Virus record (IMG/VR): IMGVR_UViG_3300027279_000004
Location: 1 to 46,765 of that record
From: a virus
Reading direction: 5' to 3' (one strand)
Length of the DNA stretch: 46,765 nucleotides
Position 1 is the first letter of the stretch. The number at the start of each line of letters is the position of its first letter. The notes beneath the pieces were generated by a model. That model made no database searches. It was not told where the DNA came from and worked only from the letters and a program-made list of their open reading frames with translations. This document shows, piece by piece, positions 18,208-44,113 of this stretch. The translations under genes were made by a program, and so were the position numbers.

Positions 18208-19554
18208 TTATTTAACCTTTATAGCTTTCTGTAACTGTAAAAATCTTGCGTTACTAATAGTTGCTAAAACATCAATATCAGTCTGTCTAAGAATATTGAG
18301 TACTGAAACTAATTTACCTATGATTACGTTAAACTGTTCTAACTTGCTATCGTTAATAAATTTAATACCTTGTACTAATATCGGTATACATGCTTTAAAA
18401 GCTTCTGAATCAACAATTCCTTGCGTTAGGTCATTTAAAATAAATAAGACTTTTAATATGTGTGCTGTACCAGCAGCAATATAATTGCCTGGTATACCTA
18501 AAGCACCATCTAATATACTAGATTCCTCTAGATAAATATCTAATAAATCCTGAATTGTCTCATTTGGATTTAATACGTTGATATAGGAACTAATTAATTT
18601 ATCTAAGAGTTCGTTTGACGAGTTTATTCTGCTGAGTAAAACAGAGTCGTAAAACAAGGCTGGATCGATACTTATTAGCTTTTTAATCAGCTCAATATCA
18701 TCATCTGTATAATTACCTGTAAAAATATTTTCAGCTAGCTTATTAAAGATTACAGCCTTGTCTAACTCGTCTGTCGCAATGTTACCGATGTTTATTAGCC
18801 TAGTTATAATGTCAGTTCTAGTATTGATATCAAAGCCAGGTGAGTACACTTTCGAGATTGGTAGATTCACCAAAACAATAGAATTTACAAATGCAGTTAG
18901 TATCTGCCTCGCACGTTCTAGTTTTGGCGAACTACGAAGTATAAAACTAGAGAGTAATAGAGGATCAGGTTTATTTGATTTTAAAATTGTATCCGTGTTA
19001 GATAAAATTGCTTGATAGACCTCTATATAGGTTGGATCAGGTTTATTCACTTTAAGAAAGCTAAGCATGTTACCAGGCAAGGCAGCACCTATTTCAGGTA
19101 AATTATTAGGATCTGAAAAGTCGTATTTAGGATAGAAATCTTTATCTTTAGGTTTTAACCTCCAACGTTTAGCATGTACAGTTAATTCAATTGGACTTCT
19201 GTTCGGTAAGGAATTTACAGTGTATTGTGTATTTGTAACTAGAAGTAAATCAACAATAGAAGATAGTGCAATAACTAACCTAAATAGTTGTTTATGTAAT
19301 TCAGTAGTCTGTTTTCTTCTAGGCAATCTTGGTTCAATATAACGTAAAGAGTTAGATTCCAAAAAGTTTTGCTTGTCTCTATATCTAAGATAGTACTTAC
19401 CGTGTGCAGCTAATCCGGCTACAGCTGCAAATTCTTGTGAGAATATATTCGACAACTCATCATCATCTGCAACAAGACTCGGATTCTCCAGGTACCTAGG
19501 ATCTATACCAAAAATATCTACTGGTATTTCTATGTTTGATTGTACTCTTGTCAT
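18208..19554 (-). CDS. Unknown baseplate-module protein, 448 aa
   Basis: The ATG at 19554 overlaps the upstream stop by four bases. The first 110 residues are basic and beta-rich with Arg/Tyr clusters (HGKYYLRYRDKQNFLESN). From about residue 160 onward the protein is strongly helical, with repeated leucine-rich pairs of helices (TDIITRLINIGNIATDELDK, DDDIELIKKLISIDPALF, NSSNELLDKLISSYI), an alpha-solenoid pattern. No catalytic motif is seen. Its position between hub and spike candidates suggests a baseplate assembly or structural role. Family not recognised. Confidence 0.6.
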   Translation of the reverse strand: MTRVQSNIEIPVDIFGIDPRYLENPSLVADDDELSNIFSQEFAAVAGLAAHGKYYLRYRDKQNFLESNSLRYIEPRLPRRKQTTELHKQLFRLVIALSSIVDLLLVTNTQYTVNSLPNRSPIELTVHAKRWRLKPKDKDFYPKYDFSDPNNLPEIGAALPGNMLSFLKVNKPDPTYIEVYQAILSNTDTILKSNKPDPLLLSSFILRSSPKLERARQILTAFVNSIVLVNLPISKVYSPGFDINTRTDIITRLINIGNIATDELDKAVIFNKLAENIFTGNYTDDDIELIKKLISIDPALFYDSVLLSRINSSNELLDKLISSYINVLNPNETIQDLLDIYLEESSILDGALGIPGNYIAAGTAHILKVLFILNDLTQGIVDSEAFKACIPILVQGIKFINDSKLEQFNVIIGKLVSVLNILRQTDIDVLATISNARFLQLQKAIKVK

Positions 19555-20111
19555 TTTTGTGGCTCACAACCTAAGAAATCTGATATAGGTGAAACCCAAG
19601 TAAAATCTGGTGTAGGAAAATGGAACCAGCGAGCATAATTAGTACCCCAAACTTCTGACATTACCCACTCTTTTTCCCTTATAGGATGCTCGGGATGTTT
19701 TATAAAATAACTTCCAACTTGGTAAAATGGATTCTTCAACTCTCTTACAGGGTTTAAACCAGATACACTACATTTACCTTTAGGACCAGAAAACCGCAAT
19801 CTTCTACTACGTATTAGATTAGATTTCTCCCTTGCTTCGTAAGGTCCAATTAAATCTAGAGACTGCGCAATAGTTAGAGCCTGTAATGCCAGTTTATATG
19901 TAGTATTGGTTGTATGGTCTTTCCAGTTAGGTAAGTTAGCTATATTCGGTATAGACAGCTTTGTTGCTTTTCCTACCAATAAAGTAAAGTTTGTAGAGTC
20001 TGTTTCTGGTTCCTCAAAGCTATAATTACCTGAATATCTATTCCAACCATATTGAGCTTCCTCGTTACTTTGATTGTCTAAACCTTTATTCCAACCGTAC
20101 TGAGATTTCAT
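19551..20111 (-). CDS. Unknown baseplate-module protein with QYGWN repeats
   Basis: A 186-residue protein whose N-terminus holds two copies of QYGWN at residues 4-8 and 20-24, followed by an acidic linker. Residues 50-110 are helical with a basic segment (SNLIRSRRLRFSGPKGK). The C-terminal 70 residues are aromatic (VGSYFIKHPEHPIREKEW, WFHFPTPDFTWVSPISDF), with many Trp, Phe and Pro. Two C-terminal Cys and His residues do not form an evident metal site. It overlaps the following gene by four bases. Family unknown; structural role assumed from the tight cluster. Confidence 0.6.
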   Translation of the reverse strand: MKSQYGWNKGLDNQSNEEAQYGWNRYSGNYSFEEPETDSTNFTLLVGKATKLSIPNIANLPNWKDHTTNTTYKLALQALTIAQSLDLIGPYEAREKSNLIRSRRLRFSGPKGKCSVSGLNPVRELKNPFYQVGSYFIKHPEHPIREKEWVMSEVWGTNYARWFHFPTPDFTWVSPISDFLGCEPQK

Positions 20112-21278: not shown

Positions 21279-23648
21279 CTACATTAACTCTCCTAACAAA
21301 ATTTCCGTTTGAAAGCCTTTCCGTAAATTAATACAAAATACGTGCTGAACAGTATCAACCCTCAAAATAATACCTGTTTGACGTGTTTGATTAGAACCTC
21401 TATATAGAGGTTCATTTCCTACTAACTTATCAAATTCAGTTGCTTTATCATCCTCGACTATTGAACTAGATACAGTTTTATTAGCATCATTCGCTATTGT
21501 CATAGATGCAGGTACACCAAAGTACTGTCTGTTGCTAGTCTGACCTAGTGCATTATCTCTATAACATTTATATGCGTTATTCATATATTCACTAAGTGCA
21601 CTAGGTGTAATCGATCTAGTATATTCTTCTGCAGTCATTTGTAAGGAATCTACATTAAACAATCCAGCATTAAATATCCAACAAGAATGACCGGGTAGTA
21701 ATTTAGGATCGCCATCTACAACAATTGTTCCAACTCTAATGTCTCTAGATAGAGCTCTAGCCATGCTGAGAGCAGTTACCAATGCATTTTTTGCACCGGT
21801 GCTGTCTAAAGATGCAGTGGGGTCAGCGATACGAACGTGTCTAGGTGCTATATAGCTGGGTAGAATTCTCCCACCTGGTGATTCTACTAGCGAGAAGTAG
21901 TAGTGTAGCGGTAATTCTGAACCACCACTAGACGAACCAACAGACATGACATGAAAATTATTTTTATAACCTAATGTACTCCACTCCATCTGCCATTCAT
22001 GTACGTTGGGTGGATATATCTTATTATTTATTTCAACTGGTCTACCAATCACATATACTCTGGATGGCATGCCATCTTTTCTAAAGTGAGTTGATCTCGG
22101 AATGTAGAAGAAATGACCTGTTCTATGGTCTACAAAAACTTCAGTTGGCCATAACTCAGAATTAGCTAAATACCGAATAACATCTATTGGAGGCTGACCT
22201 TCTACATTAGAATTTATTAAAGTAACTACATTTAATCCGTGTGGAGTATCAGAAGACTGAGGTGCTGCTACTACAGCAGGCATTTGTTCTCTTCTTGAAT
22301 CGAAGAAGAAAGCAGTTAGGTTATTACCACTCGCTTGACTATCGAAAAAGATTTTTACTTCTGGGTCATCGTCCCCCACTTCTATGTCATAAAAACCTGA
22401 TTTTAAACCCCGTCTAGCATCATCGGAAGTTCTAGATCGCTTTATAAGTAAATCCATAACAGCCTTCAGTCTGTTTGCACTTTCATCAAATGGTGGTTTA
22501 GAGTTTTCTAATTGAGTTTTCATAACACTGCAGTCACCGAACATAAAATCTTGCTGCAGTTTTAGTTTTTGTTCTTCACTTTGTGTACTACCACCATCTT
22601 CTACCCTATTCAAATGTGGAAAAACATCTTTATCAACTAAACTTATGCTGTCATAGCATGCATAGTCCATTACAAATGGCTTTCTAGTTTGGTCTGGACC
22701 ACCAAATATACCAGTAATTTCTAAATCATATTCTGTGTCACAAGGAAACTGTGCTTTTACAGGACTAACAGAACTGTGCGGAGAATTATATGAAGACATA
22801 ACACTAGTTCTGCGATGCGCAGCTTGGTTACGGTCATAGGCAAATTCATCTCCTACAACAGGTTCCTGTCTAAATACACCCGGTGTGAAGAAAGTCTGGT
22901 CGATAATATTTTGGAGGAACATTCCTCTAGACAGATAACCTTTTCCATCTGTATCCTCATGCTGTCTAGTGACAATGGAAATAGGTGAATGTAATACAGT
23001 GTCTACAAAGTACCTCATTTTGTCTCTAAACACTACTTCGTAGAAGACTCCACTACTAGAGCCTTTTACGGTAATCATGTCTACAACGCCCCAAAAAACG
23101 GGCTGTACATCTGGATTTGGATTCGTATACCATCTATCATCTTGCCAATCAACAGGCTCTTGATAGAGGTTTTTAGTGTATCCCATGAAAAGTCTTATTT
23201 CCATTTCAGGGAAGAGAAATAAACCTATACCAGATTCCCAATCTGGAGGTGCTTCTCGGTATTTCATAGATGGTGCTAACCTCACCAAGCCATCTCCTGC
23301 TGCCCATACCCGGGTTACTTTACATTCGGCATTTACAATAGCCCAAGGTGTACGTCTACCTGCAACAAAGATTTGGCCTAGAGAATCCATTTTATAAACA
23401 GGTCTAGGTAGAGACCTGTTTGCATATTCAATCCTAGATTGAAATAATTCTTTGTGATGCGGTTGAGGTACTGTAACTAAACAGCAAGTTGGAAAGTTAT
23501 TATTTTTTATATAGTGGTGAGGTATAAGTCTTCCTTCTGAATTTCCTTCTGTTTTTGTATAACCATCGAAGGTTTCAGGAAATCTAGTTTTAGAATTTGC
23601 AGAATCTGCAATTCTACTCTTTTTCTCAAATCCCGATAAATCTGTCAT
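21279..23648 (-). CDS. Candidate baseplate hub protein (gp27/gpD-like)
   Basis: The frame opens at a TTG (23669), but an ATG at 23648 (MTDLSGFEKK) is the more usual start, giving 789 residues; neither has a clear ribosome-binding site. Hub-like features include a central strand-rich region (TEVFVDHRTGHFFYIPRSTH) and C-terminal GTIVVDGDPKLLPGHSCWIF with FNVDSLQMTAEEY, a pattern in which tail hub proteins place a gain-of-specificity strand before a closing segment (GIILRVDTVQHVFCINLRKG). It follows the tube gene, the position of the hub when the tape measure is elsewhere. A terminator-like hairpin lies between them, so transcription of hub and downstream genes may need read-through or another promoter. 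Hub identity is inferred. Confidence 0.6.
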   Translation of the reverse strand: MTDLSGFEKKSRIADSANSKTRFPETFDGYTKTEGNSEGRLIPHHYIKNNNFPTCCLVTVPQPHHKELFQSRIEYANRSLPRPVYKMDSLGQIFVAGRRTPWAIVNAECKVTRVWAAGDGLVRLAPSMKYREAPPDWESGIGLFLFPEMEIRLFMGYTKNLYQEPVDWQDDRWYTNPNPDVQPVFWGVVDMITVKGSSSGVFYEVVFRDKMRYFVDTVLHSPISIVTRQHEDTDGKGYLSRGMFLQNIIDQTFFTPGVFRQEPVVGDEFAYDRNQAAHRRTSVMSSYNSPHSSVSPVKAQFPCDTEYDLEITGIFGGPDQTRKPFVMDYACYDSISLVDKDVFPHLNRVEDGGSTQSEEQKLKLQQDFMFGDCSVMKTQLENSKPPFDESANRLKAVMDLLIKRSRTSDDARRGLKSGFYDIEVGDDDPEVKIFFDSQASGNNLTAFFFDSRREQMPAVVAAPQSSDTPHGLNVVTLINSNVEGQPPIDVIRYLANSELWPTEVFVDHRTGHFFYIPRSTHFRKDGMPSRVYVIGRPVEINNKIYPPNVHEWQMEWSTLGYKNNFHVMSVGSSSGGSELPLHYYFSLVESPGGRILPSYIAPRHVRIADPTASLDSTGAKNALVTALSMARALSRDIRVGTIVVDGDPKLLPGHSCWIFNAGLFNVDSLQMTAEEYTRSITPSALSEYMNNAYKCYRDNALGQTSNRQYFGVPASMTIANDANKTVSSSIVEDDKATEFDKLVGNEPLYRGSNQTRQTGIILRVDTVQHVFCINLRKGFQTEILLGELM

Positions 23649-23669: not shown

Positions 23670-23710
23670 ATAAAAATAAGCTAGTCCTCTATTACTAGAA
23701 CTAGCTTATT
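23670..23710 (-). terminator. Intrinsic terminator after tail tube gene
   Basis: An 11-bp perfect stem (AATAAGCTAGT at 23675-23685 with ACTAGCTTATT at 23700-23710, 14-base loop) is followed, reading minus, by TTTATTTG. It lies 22 bases past the tube stop. This is the usual arrangement behind a strongly expressed tail tube gene. Some read-through must occur if the hub gene has no promoter of its own. Confidence 0.75.
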
Positions 23711-23732
23711 AGTTTTGCGTTTTTTAGGTAAA

Positions 23733-24479
23733 TTACACGCCCTGAGGACCAAATAGATCTTGGAATCTATTAACACCTATACTAAACTGAGCGGTATTTA
23801 GACCTTCTCTATAGTACTCATAACCCTCGGCTACACCTTGCAGCTGAACGGGTACAACACCACGACCACCAGAGAAGGCTGTGTTAATAGAGTCAATTTT
23901 ACAGTTTAGTAATTTTATTCTACCTACAACAGATCTATACCGCTGCTCATCTGGACCAGTACCTAAGACAGGGGCATCACAGGCAGGATCAAAAGCAAAC
24001 TGTGGTCTACCCTCAGTTGGGTTATATATTATACTATTACCTCCTATACCTCTTAGTTGGTTGCTATATGGTCTAGTAAATAGACCTTCATCGTTTGTAG
24101 AATAAAAATCACCAGATGCATCTACACTAAACGTAACAGAGATTCTAGGTGATCTATTGATTCTGTTAGCACGAGAAATTCTCGTGTATCCCATTGCCTC
24201 CGCAAATATGTCGGTGTCAATCATTCCACGCTCAAGTACGAAGGCTATTTGTATTTCTCCATCCAAATATCTGGGTACCCGTTGGTCTAGCTCCATGTAC
24301 GCTTCAGTAGCGTTACGTATGGTCAAGACTGCGCTGGTAAATCTACCGATCATTCTAGGTGCACCATTACCGCACATACCCTGCACCCAAACATTGCAGT
24401 CAAAACCTTGTATTGGGTCAAAAATACCATTATTAAGTACACCGTTATGTGGGCGACCAGCATTTCCTGCTACAGCCAT
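23733..24479 (-). CDS. Tail tube protein
   Basis: A 248-residue protein that follows the sheath gene in transcription order, as tube genes do in contractile-tailed phages. It has the tube pattern: an N-terminal region (FDPIQGFDCNVWVQGMCGNG), the strand/turn series with MIGRFTSAVLTIRNATEAYM and ELDQRVPRYLDGEIQIAFVL, where the tube's RVPRYLDG-type motif is characteristic, and a closing strand (GVVPVQLQGVAEGYEYYREG). The start is the ATG at 24479. A possible promoter lies ahead and a strong hairpin terminator behind, consistent with high separate expression. The assignment rests on motif style plus synteny with the sheath. Confidence 0.8.
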   Translation of the reverse strand: MAVAGNAGRPHNGVLNNGIFDPIQGFDCNVWVQGMCGNGAPRMIGRFTSAVLTIRNATEAYMELDQRVPRYLDGEIQIAFVLERGMIDTDIFAEAMGYTRISRANRINRSPRISVTFSVDASGDFYSTNDEGLFTRPYSNQLRGIGGNSIIYNPTEGRPQFAFDPACDAPVLGTGPDEQRYRSVVGRIKLLNCKIDSINTAFSGGRGVVPVQLQGVAEGYEYYREGLNTAQFSIGVNRFQDLFGPQGV

Positions 24480-24514
24480 AATTAAAACCTAAATCTAAAT
24501 CTATAAATACTTAG

Positions 24515-24544
24515 ATTATATTGACTACAAGTAACTTATGTGAT
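24515..24544 (-). promoter_or_regulatory. Possible sigma-70-type promoter for tail tube gene
   Basis: On the minus strand a perfect TATAAT -10 (plus 24515-24520) is preceded at 18 bases by ATCACA (plus 24539-24544), a 4/6 match to the -35. The predicted start lies about 30 bases ahead of the tube ATG. It overlaps the plus-strand promoter head-on. The -35 match and spacing are only fair. Confidence 0.4.
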
Positions 24545-24549
24545 ATGAT
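24521..24549 (+). promoter_or_regulatory. Near-consensus sigma-70 promoter, plus strand
   Basis: TTGACT (24521-24526), exactly 17 bases, then TATGAT (24544-24549): 5/6 and 5/6 matches at optimal spacing. Transcription would start near 24556 and run into the 53-codon gene at 24671, leaving a leader of about 115 bases. The strength and orientation contrast with the surrounding minus-strand genes. Such a promoter would be read by unmodified host RNA polymerase. Confidence 0.7.
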
Positions 24550-24631
24550 ATAGCACTTTCTGCTTAAGTTATCAGATTTTGTTGTTTACTTAAAAGTAAC
24601 TTGACCAGTAAAGCTAATAATAACTAAGTTA
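24532..24631. repeat. Evenly spaced alternating TAACTT/AAGTTA motifs, possible operators
   Basis: Four copies of one 6-bp motif alternate in orientation: TAACTT 24532-24537, AAGTTA 24566-24571, TAACTT 24597-24602, AAGTTA 24626-24631. Two are extended to AAGTAACTT and two to TAAGTTA. Centre-to-centre spacing is 34, 31 and 29 bases, near three helical turns. The first lies within the promoter spacer and the rest in the predicted leader. Chance is possible in such AT-rich sequence. Confidence 0.35.
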
Positions 24632-24670
24632 ATTTGATAACATCTACTACAAGAATACTAGGAGAATTTT

Positions 24671-24832
24671 ATGCTAGATAACTTTTCTGTAATCAAAAAT
24701 ATAGTAGATGCAGTTACAGTGTTATTGGTTTATAAAGTTCTACTTGAGCTACTAATTACTTTTCACAGTAAGAAACTAGCGGTTAAATATGTACCTAAAT
24801 TAATAGATAGGTTAGATAAATACATACCGTAA
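24671..24832 (+). CDS. 53-residue putative membrane peptide, opposite strand
   Basis: An ATG-started frame lies on the plus strand in the 450-base gap between tube and sheath. AGGAG at 24660-24664 is six bases ahead of the ATG, a strong ribosome-binding site. The product (MLDNFSVIKNIVDAVTVLLV...) has a hydrophobic segment at about residues 11-31 (IVDAVTVLLVYKVLLELLIT), long enough to span a membrane, then a basic tail (HSKKLAVKYVPKLIDRLDKY). With a sigma-70 promoter upstream and a strong hairpin 47 bases after the stop, this is a complete transcription unit independent of the late genes. Small membrane proteins expressed this way in phages include superinfection-exclusion and lysis-control factors; which, if either, applies is unknown. 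No family recognised. Confidence 0.65.
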   Translation: MLDNFSVIKNIVDAVTVLLVYKVLLELLITFHSKKLAVKYVPKLIDRLDKYIP

Positions 24833-24879
24833 CTATCGCATTTAGAGAGATTTTTAGGTAAAGTTTGAATAATCATTAA

Positions 24880-24907
24880 AAAGAGGTGCAATACATTGCA
24901 CCTCTTT
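24880..24907. terminator. Bidirectional hairpin terminator between converging genes
   Basis: A 12-bp perfect stem (AAAGAGGTGCAA 24880-24891, TTGCACCTCTTT 24896-24907) with a 4-base loop. Reading minus it ends in a T run (CCTCTTTTTAATG), so it should terminate the sheath transcript. In the plus direction the run is weaker (CCTCTTTAACTT), but it can still end the small plus-strand gene. Confidence 0.8.
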
Positions 24908-24932: not shown

Positions 24933-27900
24933 TTAGAGAGCAATTGTTACACGCTCTGGTTGTCTTATTAGATTAACCATTAGTCTATCAGCAGGATAGA
25001 TTGGGGTAAAGTATGCATCTATCGTTAGGTTGCCACTAATTAAGGCACTTACAGGGTTTTTAGAGATACTAATTTCTGTCTTACTGTATTCAAGAATCAA
25101 ACCCTGTGACTTCCTAATCTCTAGATAATTATCAACTGCATCTTTAATCTGACGTACAGTTTGTTGTGTTAACGGCTCAGACTTAGCCCATTGCAGACTA
25201 AAGAATAGATCTTCCCTTATTACGTTATAAACACGTCTGATTGTATCCCAATACCAAGCAGGATCAGTAGAGAGTGTTCTTCCATTTAAGAAGTGTACAA
25301 TTCCACTACCTTCCTCTCGGTAAATAATATCTAGTCTATTCTGTGTATATTCGTTTCTAGCGGCATGCCCAACAGAAACATCAGTAGAAATTACATTTCT
25401 AATTTGAGGAGATGAAGCTCTTGCAGCAGTAGACACTTGGAACGGAGTCACTGCTATGTGACCCAGTGCGAAACCGGTAGGAGACACTGCATATTGACCT
25501 AAAATAGGTTGTCCTGCATAGGTTACCCATCCGGCAACCATTTTTCCATATCTAGAATTAGGTTGAGTTGCCATGTAGTTTCTAGCCTGTTGAGCAGTTA
25601 AGCCCTTAGGTGCAGCCAGAACAGCGAATCTCAAACCGTCTTCTTCTGAAGCAGTTTCAGCTTGCTGAATTAGCGCAAAGTGAATGCTGTCTAAGGTTTC
25701 AATAGGTCTACCTAACTCATCTGGTGTAGCAGCTACTCCAATAAGGTTTGCTTGAAGATTTCTTAGTACTTCTAAGCCATCTAAGAAATCTTTCTCATTA
25801 AGTGTAGGCCCTAAACTGCCGTATCTGAGATAAGCCTCAGTAGCTAAGTCTTGGCCACCTTCTAATCTTTCATAGTCTGCTGGAAGTACTACAATAGATA
25901 GAAGGTTACTTGTACGCGCTCTATACTCAATTAGATTACCTTGTACACCTACATCTTTAGCCTCTAGAATAAGCTCTAATCCGTTCAAACGGGCCTCAAC
26001 AGGTAGACTAGGTACACCTCCACCTAGCGTAGTTGTTTCAGTTGGATAACCTAAGAAGTTAAGTCTAGCTATCGCACTGCCATTTATATTTAGTGTTAGA
26101 GGTACAGTCGGTGTAAAAGTACCAGAAGTAGGTGTAAACGTAATAGTAGTACCAGAGGTACTAATACTATACGTTACACCATTTATTGTCCTAGATGATC
26201 CTAGTCCTGCGGCTAATTGTGCAGCAAGAGCAGAAGGTGTTGTTACGTTACCTGATATTGTAACTGCGGCGTTAGCAACGTTGATAACAGTGCCGTTTGT
26301 AACGTTTACAGGACCACTAATATTCAGAGTAAAGGTCCCTGGCCAAACACTAGACCAAGCAGCGCCGAACTGATTGCCACCTTCTTTAACAAAACCTGCG
26401 GCTGTGAAGGTTATTTCCTCAATATCTAACTCAGATGAGTCTATTAGTTTAAATTCAAGTGTGTTCGCATTAATCTTAGAGACTAATACTTCACTATTAC
26501 CGGTCCAAGAGGCTACGATTGCATTTGTAACCACTTCAATATCGGTTACAGGTGAAGCTAATGATCCTAAAGCAATAGTAGGCTGAGATAGTACTGTTCC
26601 GTCAGTTAGTTTAATTCGTGTTGTAACAATGGAACTAACTAGGTGTACGTCGGGATGCAAGTTTAGGATCTTAGAGTTATTTGATATATAGACATTTACA
26701 ACGTCAGTAGCTCGAGACTTAGTAATGTTTACAGGAGTTTCATCTACACCTGGATTTTTCTGTACAAAACGTATACCATCACCAGTAGGAAGAACGATTG
26801 TATCGTACCTTAAGTCGCCCGCAAAAGCTGCTTCTAAAGCATTTACCAATGTAAATCGGTTGTAGCCTCCAGCTGGTGCAGGTGCTGTAGTTACGCCTAA
26901 TACAGTTAAGGTATTACCTGCAGAAATGTTTGTACCACTTAAGAACCTAAGTGTAACAGCAGCTTTAGTACCAGAGTTGTTAATTAATCTTTCTACACCT
27001 TTAGCTATACTTTGAGCAGTGTCAAACTGTCTATAAGTATACTTAACTGTATTAACAATTGGAAATCCAGATCTACGATCTCTAATGTCTATAAATAGTG
27101 TTCCATCTGCAGATGCATCGGAAGCGAAAGATAGAGTTCCTATGGCTTTTGTATGGGTAGGTACTTTAGTTAGATCATCAGCAGTTTTACCTAGATATTG
27201 TAGGTTAACTAAATCTGAACGATTTGATATCGAGAGTAATGTATTACCCGAAGCTGTATAGAATACATCTTGTAGATCCAGTGAAGGTAAAAACTCCTCA
27301 AAGAAACCATTGGCAACCCTATTAGTCCTGCGGTAGTCAACAACCCGCATGTTAACTTTGCGAATAATGCCAAAGGTTTGTTGTGCAGGAGTAATTGTAA
27401 TAGCTACATCATTACCCCAGACACCAGGAGACTTTGCTAGTACCTTTAAAATCGGAGTATTATCCGCGTGATATAAAATTCTTTCAGCAACAGTCGGAGG
27501 ATCTTGCCCACCGGTAAATCTAGCCGGTGTGGTAGGAGCATACGTAGTTCCAACAGAAGGAGGAGTGGATATAATCCAACGACCGTTTGAAGCGTTGTTA
27601 TCCTTTACCCAACGACCGGGGTTAACAATAGTAAGAACCTCAGGTTTGATATGAGTAGCAGTTGTTACATCATCACCGTTATCAGTTGTTAGGTTATCTG
27701 GATCCCACTTATAAGTATTGAGAACTCCATTACCATCCCCTAGTTGAATAAGAAAAGGAGCCTCAACTCCAATCAGTGGGAAAGATCTTAATTCAGCTAG
27801 ATTTTGTCTATAAGCACCTTCTATATGATTAATTGTTACGTTAGTACCTGCTGAACTAAAATCTACAACTGGTGTCCCAGCTAAAGCATGAGCCCGAGTA

Positions 27901-28832
27901 GATGCAACTTGGAATGTGTTTGCAGTAACGTTTGTAACGTAGTAAATAGTTGTAGATGAGATGGGGTTGTTACCTACTTGTGGTGCAGTAGCAAACCCAA
28001 ATCTTATTCTGTCACCGACCTGTAAGTCATGACCGTTTAAGGTAATTACATCAGTAGTTACATCAATAGTTACAGGTAGGTTAGGTGCTATTGAGTTAAA
28101 AGTTGCTCGTATTTGCTTATCATTAGGTCTAATTACAGTAGGCAGTGATTCATCAGCATTGCTCGATGGCTCGTAGTTGTAATACAGACCAGTATAAAAT
28201 ACGTAGGCTGTTGATTGATTAGTTAACCTAGCGGACTCAACTTGCTTAAGTCTATCTACATCAACAATACCCGCACCGAACTGTTTAAGGGGGACAACAT
28301 GTACAGTCCAGTTATCTGTATGATATCCAAACTCCTGAGCAGTTACGTATAGTCTATTGCCTATTACTTCAGGTAGAACTCGCTGATTAGGGTCAGTTCC
28401 AATTGCCGTGGCAATCTTATCTCTGATCTTAAATTCACTATCACCGTTATTAATAGAGATAGAAGTAGCCTCAAATGCAACTTGACCTTTATCATCACGT
28501 ATTAATACCGTAACAACATGATTTACAGTAGCAGTGCCTCTAACTAATATTTCACCTCTACCTGCTCTGCCTTTAGACAATGCCCTAACTATAACAAAGT
28601 CTCTAGCACCTTGGTCCATGGCAGCTTGGACAGCTAGAGAACCTGGGTATAAGTCCTCTTCAAAGATTTTTCTAAGCTGTTCTCTGTTAGAAATAACAAT
28701 ACCTTCGTTTTGTGGACCTCTGGAGAAAGCTCCAACAAGACCTATTCTATTTTGAACTCTACTAACTGGTGGGCGTAACCCAACGTTATCTTCATTAAAG
28801 AATATTGAGGGATAAAGGGCGTCGATAGGCAC
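24933..28832 (-). CDS. Tail sheath protein, unusually large with beta-domain insertions
   Basis: A 1299-residue protein, about twice the size of T4 gp18. The N-terminus (YPSIFFNEDNVGLRPPVSRV, GLVGAFSRGPQNEGIVISN, SLAVQAAMDQGARDFVIVRA) and the C-terminal 300 residues (SGIVHFLNGRTLSTDPAWYW, IREDLFFSLQWAKSEPLTQQ, ALISGNLTIDAYFTPIYPAD) are clearly sheath. Between about residues 215 and 1000 are extra beta-domains. One near 235-330 has the phage module ITLNGHDLQVGDRIRF / YYVTNVTANTFQVAST; another near 840-960 is Thr/Val-rich and Ig-like. These probably decorate the outer sheath surface. The start is a GTG at 28832; an in-frame stop lies 15 bases upstream, so it cannot begin further out. Confidence 0.9.
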   Translation of the reverse strand: MPIDALYPSIFFNEDNVGLRPPVSRVQNRIGLVGAFSRGPQNEGIVISNREQLRKIFEEDLYPGSLAVQAAMDQGARDFVIVRALSKGRAGRGEILVRGTATVNHVVTVLIRDDKGQVAFEATSISINNGDSEFKIRDKIATAIGTDPNQRVLPEVIGNRLYVTAQEFGYHTDNWTVHVVPLKQFGAGIVDVDRLKQVESARLTNQSTAYVFYTGLYYNYEPSSNADESLPTVIRPNDKQIRATFNSIAPNLPVTIDVTTDVITLNGHDLQVGDRIRFGFATAPQVGNNPISSTTIYYVTNVTANTFQVASTRAHALAGTPVVDFSSAGTNVTINHIEGAYRQNLAELRSFPLIGVEAPFLIQLGDGNGVLNTYKWDPDNLTTDNGDDVTTATHIKPEVLTIVNPGRWVKDNNASNGRWIISTPPSVGTTYAPTTPARFTGGQDPPTVAERILYHADNTPILKVLAKSPGVWGNDVAITITPAQQTFGIIRKVNMRVVDYRRTNRVANGFFEEFLPSLDLQDVFYTASGNTLLSISNRSDLVNLQYLGKTADDLTKVPTHTKAIGTLSFASDASADGTLFIDIRDRRSGFPIVNTVKYTYRQFDTAQSIAKGVERLINNSGTKAAVTLRFLSGTNISAGNTLTVLGVTTAPAPAGGYNRFTLVNALEAAFAGDLRYDTIVLPTGDGIRFVQKNPGVDETPVNITKSRATDVVNVYISNNSKILNLHPDVHLVSSIVTTRIKLTDGTVLSQPTIALGSLASPVTDIEVVTNAIVASWTGNSEVLVSKINANTLEFKLIDSSELDIEEITFTAAGFVKEGGNQFGAAWSSVWPGTFTLNISGPVNVTNGTVINVANAAVTISGNVTTPSALAAQLAAGLGSSRTINGVTYSISTSGTTITFTPTSGTFTPTVPLTLNINGSAIARLNFLGYPTETTTLGGGVPSLPVEARLNGLELILEAKDVGVQGNLIEYRARTSNLLSIVVLPADYERLEGGQDLATEAYLRYGSLGPTLNEKDFLDGLEVLRNLQANLIGVAATPDELGRPIETLDSIHFALIQQAETASEEDGLRFAVLAAPKGLTAQQARNYMATQPNSRYGKMVAGWVTYAGQPILGQYAVSPTGFALGHIAVTPFQVSTAARASSPQIRNVISTDVSVGHAARNEYTQNRLDIIYREEGSGIVHFLNGRTLSTDPAWYWDTIRRVYNVIREDLFFSLQWAKSEPLTQQTVRQIKDAVDNYLEIRKSQGLILEYSKTEISISKNPVSALISGNLTIDAYFTPIYPADRLMVNLIRQPERVTIAL

Positions 28833-32485: not shown

Positions 32486-32506
32486 ATGAATCCTAAAATC
32501 CTTTTT

Positions 32507-32546
32507 ACAGTGTGGTAGATTGATTGATTCAATACTACCACACTGT
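32507..32546. terminator. Strong intergenic hairpin after decoration gene
   Basis: A 12-bp perfect stem (ACAGTGTGGTAG 32507-32518, CTACCACACTGT 32535-32546), extended past a one-base bulge by ATTGA/TCAAT, closes on a 5-base loop. On the minus strand it is followed by AAAAAGG rather than a T run. It may therefore act as an RNA 3'-end stabiliser or processing site rather than a canonical terminator. Confidence 0.55.
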
Positions 32547-32558
32547 GAATACTAAATG

Positions 32559-33458: not shown

Positions 33459-33489
33459 AGTTTATATTTCTCCAACTATTTTAGGGTTT

Positions 33490-33514
33490 ACAGGGGGTAT
33501 TGAATACCCCCTGT
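33490..33514. terminator. Strong GC-rich hairpin between capsid and decoration genes
   Basis: An 11-bp perfect stem (ACAGGGGGTAT 33490-33500, ATACCCCCTGT 33504-33514) with a 3-base loop, in otherwise AT-rich DNA. The T run (GTTTTATT) follows only on the plus strand; on the minus strand AAACCC follows. It is probably a partial terminator or RNA-stabilising stem downstream of the capsid gene. Confidence 0.55.
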
Positions 33515-33527
33515 TTTATTCAACTAA

Positions 33528-43702: not shown

Positions 43703-44113
43703 ATGTACAACCAACCAACAAAAAGATTTCCCAAAAGGTTAGCTGAGTTTCTGTTTCCTAATATAGATCCAAAGCAAATTAAGGACGCACACTTAAATAT
43801 TTCGGGTTATTTAACAGTGGAATTTGTCGATGGTAGTAAAAAAGTTAGAAAGATTCCTGGTAATTTGAGTCTAGATACACTCGCACGATTAGAACGAAGA
43901 TTGGTATTTGGAAAATTAATTCTCCAAGGCTATACCCTGAAAAAGGTAGAAGGCGGATACAAATGTATAACTGGAGAGGGCGTTGAGTATTATATGCAAG
44001 ATGAAACGTGTGAGTGTAAAGACTTTACTTACAATCTAGGTGAAAGAGAGCCTTGTAAACACCTGTTATTTAAAGATGCTTTTCTAGAGTTATTAGAGAT
44101 ATTTAATAGCTAA
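43703..44113 (+). CDS. Small SWIM zinc-finger protein on the opposite strand
   Basis: A 136-residue protein. The C-terminal half carries the SWIM motif CxCx(n)CxH: Cys103, Cys105, Cys118 and His120 (CECKDFTYNLGEREPCKHLL), preceded by YKCITGEGVEYYMQ, as in classic SWIM domains. SWIM domains bind zinc and take part in DNA or protein contacts. The N-terminal 65 residues (PKRLAEFLFPNIDPKQIKDA, LTVEFVDGSKKVRKIPG) look like a small beta domain. The gene is read against its neighbours. A weak promoter (TTGATC, 16 bases, TGTAAC at 43658-43685) precedes the ATG, which has only a weak ribosome-binding site. Its stop overlaps the stop of the converging gene. A moron-type insertion is likely. Confidence 0.75.
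   Translation: MYNQPTKRFPKRLAEFLFPNIDPKQIKDAHLNISGYLTVEFVDGSKKVRKIPGNLSLDTLARLERRLVFGKLILQGYTLKKVEGGYKCITGEGVEYYMQDETCECKDFTYNLGEREPCKHLLFKDAFLELLEIFNS

Follow-up and report, generated by a model that had tools for sequence, protein, structure and literature searches.

Phage morons are genes that lie inserted between conserved genes and bring with them their own promoter and terminator. One described locus of comparable plan is pid of Salmonella phage P22: this small orphan gene lies among the late genes, runs against its neighbors and carries a Shine-Dalgarno sequence and a 3′ terminator. Related phages have nothing or something else at its site, and Pid, at 86 residues, has a demonstrated product and host effect (PMC3573128). 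For Microcystis phage Ma-LMM01, sigma-70-like promoters have been assigned to all three expression classes (PMC5780444).

The original prediction placed a self-contained cassette of this kind between the sheath and tube genes of a 46.8-kb virus record, which was analyzed over its whole length and is referred to here as the window. On balance, we favor reading the locus as a moron-type accessory transcription unit that encodes a single-helix membrane peptide, and the analogy with pid suggests that it is probably another case of an already known kind of phage add-on gene. The cassette resembles morons in general in its promoter, its opposite orientation and its variable presence at a conserved junction, but differs from them in that its terminator is apparently not its own. 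With pid it shares an architecture, that of an orphan gene in antisense orientation at a variable site of the late region (no sequence relation is claimed). Its 53-residue product, however, is known from sequence alone, and the terminator appears to be that of the sheath gene, whereas pid has one at its 3′ end.

A plus-strand cassette in a minus-strand tail region

The window belongs to a cyanobacterial phage of a poorly studied family distantly related to Ma-LMM01, and its contractile-tail morphogenesis region, which includes sheath, major head protein, portal and baseplate genes, lies on the minus strand. The 453-bp gap between sheath and tube genes is the largest intergenic gap of the window. 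Scans of IMG/VR returned two close relatives and no others: G001, of 14.6 kb, and G002, of 41.5 kb, are both largely collinear with the window at 82–90% DNA identity. The protein encoded after the sheath, a putative tail tube by synteny, is 99% identical in these two relatives and 33–34% identical to its counterparts in Microcoleus phage My-WqHQDG and Ma-LMM01. Inspection of the gap revealed each element that had been proposed from the letters alone, all but the hairpin set out below on the plus strand, against the late genes:

23733–24479, minus strand: putative tail tube gene, a neighbor of the cassette; matches phrog_34837 (unknown function) and follows the sheath as in Ma-LMM01 gp091–gp092
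24521–24549, plus strand: near-consensus sigma-70-type promoter with extended −10, TTGACT-17-TATGAT, with TGA before TATGAT
24550–24659, plus strand: leader, with its first ~50 nt conserved in three phages, 24600–24634 similar in two and the last part diverged
24660–24664, plus strand: Shine-Dalgarno sequence AGGAG, 6 nt ahead of the ATG; GGGGG in G002
24671–24832, plus strand: 53-codon frame for a predicted single-helix membrane peptide with a basic C-terminal half; supported by a G002 homologue and a coding test, absent in G001
24880–24907, minus strand: 12-bp hairpin with loop TACA, read as the 3′ hairpin or terminator of the sheath gene and possibly used from both sides
24933–28832, minus strand: tail sheath gene, with PHROG and Pfam sheath matches, the other neighbor of the cassette

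Promoter and leader in three phages

The promoter consists of TTGACT (24521–24526), a 17-bp spacer and TATGAT (24544–24549), with the TG of the extended −10 at 24541–24542. In 3000 dinucleotide shuffles of the 453-bp gap, the extended pattern arose on either strand in a fraction of 0.0003, while an ATG-initiated frame of 53 codons or more arose in 0.022 and one preceded by a Shine-Dalgarno sequence in 0.0007; the rarity of the promoter and of the frame with its Shine-Dalgarno sequence makes chance a poor explanation of the cassette. Over the whole window, the extended pattern is expected 0.05 times and is seen once. Nine sites in the window match at least 10 of the 12 promoter positions, and only that at 24521 has exact hexamers and spacing that recur at the corresponding position in both relatives.

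Comparison of the three phages indicates that the promoter is under constraint. The plus-strand hexamers, the 17-bp spacing and the extended −10 are intact at the same place in the window, G001 and G002, and 28 of the 29 columns from −35 to −10 are invariant, as against 66% at the fourfold sites of the neighboring tube and sheath genes that served as the neutral reference (P = 9e-5). In IMG/VR, a search with the promoter pattern hit G001 and G002 and nothing else, and one with the leader pattern hit G002 alone.

Since each of the three phages has the conserved block immediately ahead of its tube gene, the block might instead be a minus-strand regulatory region of that gene, with the plus-strand promoter match as a by-product. 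A minus-strand ATCACA-18-TATAAT in the window and G002 is consistent with such a role; the −10 of this site is lost in G001, however, whereas the plus-strand elements are intact throughout, and other tail and head genes that lie behind hairpins have gaps of 63–73 bp and no evident promoter. We consider this alternative quite improbable. The octamer TATAAATA at 24502 was also rejected as a T4-type late promoter, since the window contains 15 of its kind and G002 has lost this one.

If the plus-strand promoter is used, host RNA polymerase carrying its primary sigma factor would start near 24556 and generate a transcript composed of a ~115-nt leader and the small gene. The host-type promoter had been taken to imply expression in the lysogen or early in infection; this does not follow, because in Ma-LMM01 sigma-70-like promoters are assigned to every class.

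Beyond the promoter, 40 of the 49 leader columns at 24550–24598 are invariant in the three phages (P = 0.012); positions 24600–24634 show 4 differences in 35 between two phages, which is not significant, and 24635–24656 have diverged, with no conservation past 24635. The frame is therefore less well conserved than the promoter and the initial ~50 nt of leader; both of these survive in G001 without the frame, and would still yield a ~100-nt transcript with a hairpin at its end. These features point to the main rival explanation, namely that the conserved product is an RNA, a short plus-strand transcript with a regulatory role or antisense to the 3′ end of the sheath gene, with the frame as a passenger that is decaying or incidental. 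However, the leader folds no better than its shuffles (z 0.28 and −0.06), so that a structured leader was rejected, and none of the Rfam families attains its gathering score in the cassette region; in addition, the frame carries a coding signal (see below), and its loss in G001 may simply be recent. We regard an RNA product as a serious but unlikely alternative. A combination of the two, in which the conserved function is that of a regulatory RNA made within the tail operon, perhaps antisense to the last part of the sheath message, and a fast-evolving membrane peptide rides along in some lineages, seems to us a good deal more doubtful. A match of Rfam STnc40 to the hairpin (E 0.0095) lies below the gathering score and occurs on both strands, indicating that Rfam matches there reflect the hairpin only.

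The frame and its predicted peptide

The frame opens with the ATG at 24671 and closes with a stop codon that ends at 24832, giving the peptide MLDNFSVIKNIVDAVTVLLVYKVLLELLITFHSKKLAVKYVPKLIDRLDKYIP. Searches of phages, plasmids, IMG/VR and GTDB genomes recovered a single homologue, the 39-residue G002 version MLDNLSIVLLTYVYILELLSAYQNKKLAVEYVPVTRQVR, which is about half identical; another match, to a human faecal phage record, is at chance level (E = 8) and was discarded. Compared to the window, the G002 frame lacks 9 codons through an in-frame deletion, differs by substitution at 27 of 99 sites and has its C-terminus altered by a 2-nt shift; it retains the ATG, MLDN and KKLAVxYVP. Only one of the six frames is stop-free in both phages, and this is the peptide frame. 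Changes between the two versions are more protein-like than expected from random substitution (P 0.003–0.004), with synonymous changes in excess (P 0.043). Drawn from one homologue, this evidence for coding is moderate, short of conclusive.

The lack of peptide conservation that would count against the original prediction is seen in part: 27% of the DNA sites of the peptide differ between the window and G002, compared to 20% at neutral sites, and G001 retains the promoter but lacks the frame altogether, yet the coding signal is present. With a dN of 0.25 and a dS of 0.71, the peptide exceeds every other protein measured here in dN, with a value close to the neutral rate of its neighbors, and also in dN/dS (~0.35). 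Its absence from G001 and the strong divergence of the G002 version suggest that the gene, if real, is dispensable, weakly constrained and fast-changing, in notable contrast to the nearly frozen promoter that precedes this drifting, losable product. The 28% G+C content of the frame was considered as a sign of foreign base composition and dismissed, since other gaps and the lowest-G+C genes have the same.

A hydrophobic segment of about 20 residues is seen as predicted, with a Kyte-Doolittle 19-residue maximum of 2.19 in the window and 1.65 in G002, and its core is kept in both. The value of 2.19 is reached by 7% of chance frames of at least 40 codons in this AT-rich DNA, and the segment contains D13, K22 and E26. 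AlphaFold2, run from two sequences only, models one helix spanning residues 2–51 (mean pLDDT 75), and the peptide is probably inserted in a membrane as a single helix. No family match was found in Pfam, PHROGs or PADLOC, and none of note among PDB sequences; similarity to superinfection exclusion, holin or antiholin families was likewise not found in these collections. Under the moron-type reading, the product would be a short one-helix peptide, likely residing in the host membrane with its basic C-terminal part inside, that is dispensable and fast-changing and would most likely act on a membrane process of the host or of a competitor, not in the virion. From these features we infer transcription, translation and membrane insertion, and with them any function, of which action of the membrane peptide on the host appears likeliest.

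The hairpin and the sheath–tube junction

The hairpin folds strongly relative to shuffles (z −5.8 and −7.7), with the T-run following it on the minus strand, such that it would work best as a sheath terminator. Several distant relatives that lack the cassette likewise have hairpins after the sheath stop, and in G001 a different strong hairpin stands directly after it. Because hairpins are present where the cassette is absent, and because the T-run lies on the strand opposite to the cassette, the element does not belong to the cassette only; the most plausible reading assigns it first to the sheath gene, and it may serve both sides, cassette included. Transcription of the cassette would probably end at this hairpin, borrowed from the other side. 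The description of the cassette as self-contained thus holds only in part. Elsewhere in the window, strong hairpins occupy the 63–73 bp gaps between adjacent tail and head genes (32486–32558, 33459–33527 and 23670–23732), where no promoter is evident, which suggests read-through or message-end roles.

We compared ~45 distant relatives with a readable sheath–tube junction, and in nearly all of these the junction measures 1–136 bp and lacks the cassette. One junction (L024, 4070–4888, minus strand in the locus) holds an opposite-strand gene for a 272-residue HNH endonuclease (phrog_374, E 2.6e-69), in the same lineage as L064, a contig from the genome assembly of the cyanobacterium Elainella saxicola. 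The HNH gene there, the cassette here and the short, cassette-free junctions elsewhere indicate that the junction accepts inserts. Although the HNH gene has the same site and the same orientation relative to the tail genes as the cassette, the peptide matches no such endonuclease family, and a promoter of the cassette's type was not found at the L024 junction. An insert of this kind raises the prospect that a larger inserted gene, for instance one for a homing endonuclease, once stood here and left the frame as its remnant; this is highly improbable, as the peptide lacks similarity to HNH or any other family and the frame has its own start site, Shine-Dalgarno sequence and promoter.

The moron-type reading therefore stands with respect to the opposite orientation, to a promoter that by sequence and conservation appears to be the cassette's own, and to a site that is usually cassette-free or holds another insert (~45 distant relatives, G001 and L024), and is weaker with respect to the terminator, which is apparently that of the sheath gene but may serve both sides. 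If translated, the cassette would add a hidden small gene to poorly studied cyanobacterial phages distantly related to Ma-LMM01, and would mark the sheath–tube junction as a site accepting opposite-strand inserts.

Several further loci were observed in passing. Several kilobases of opposite-strand frames, which may reflect either an insertion or a rearrangement, lie upstream of the tube homologue in another distant relative (L032, 500–4979). The minus-strand region of the window contains a second plus-strand gene of 136 codons (43703–44113), whose match to the SWIM zinc finger is weak and below cut-off (E 0.0063). G002 carries ~240 bp of extra DNA between two tail-region genes (21523–21761, opposite window positions 19554–19565), absent in the window and G001; this DNA may hold a short late-strand frame of ~40 residues.
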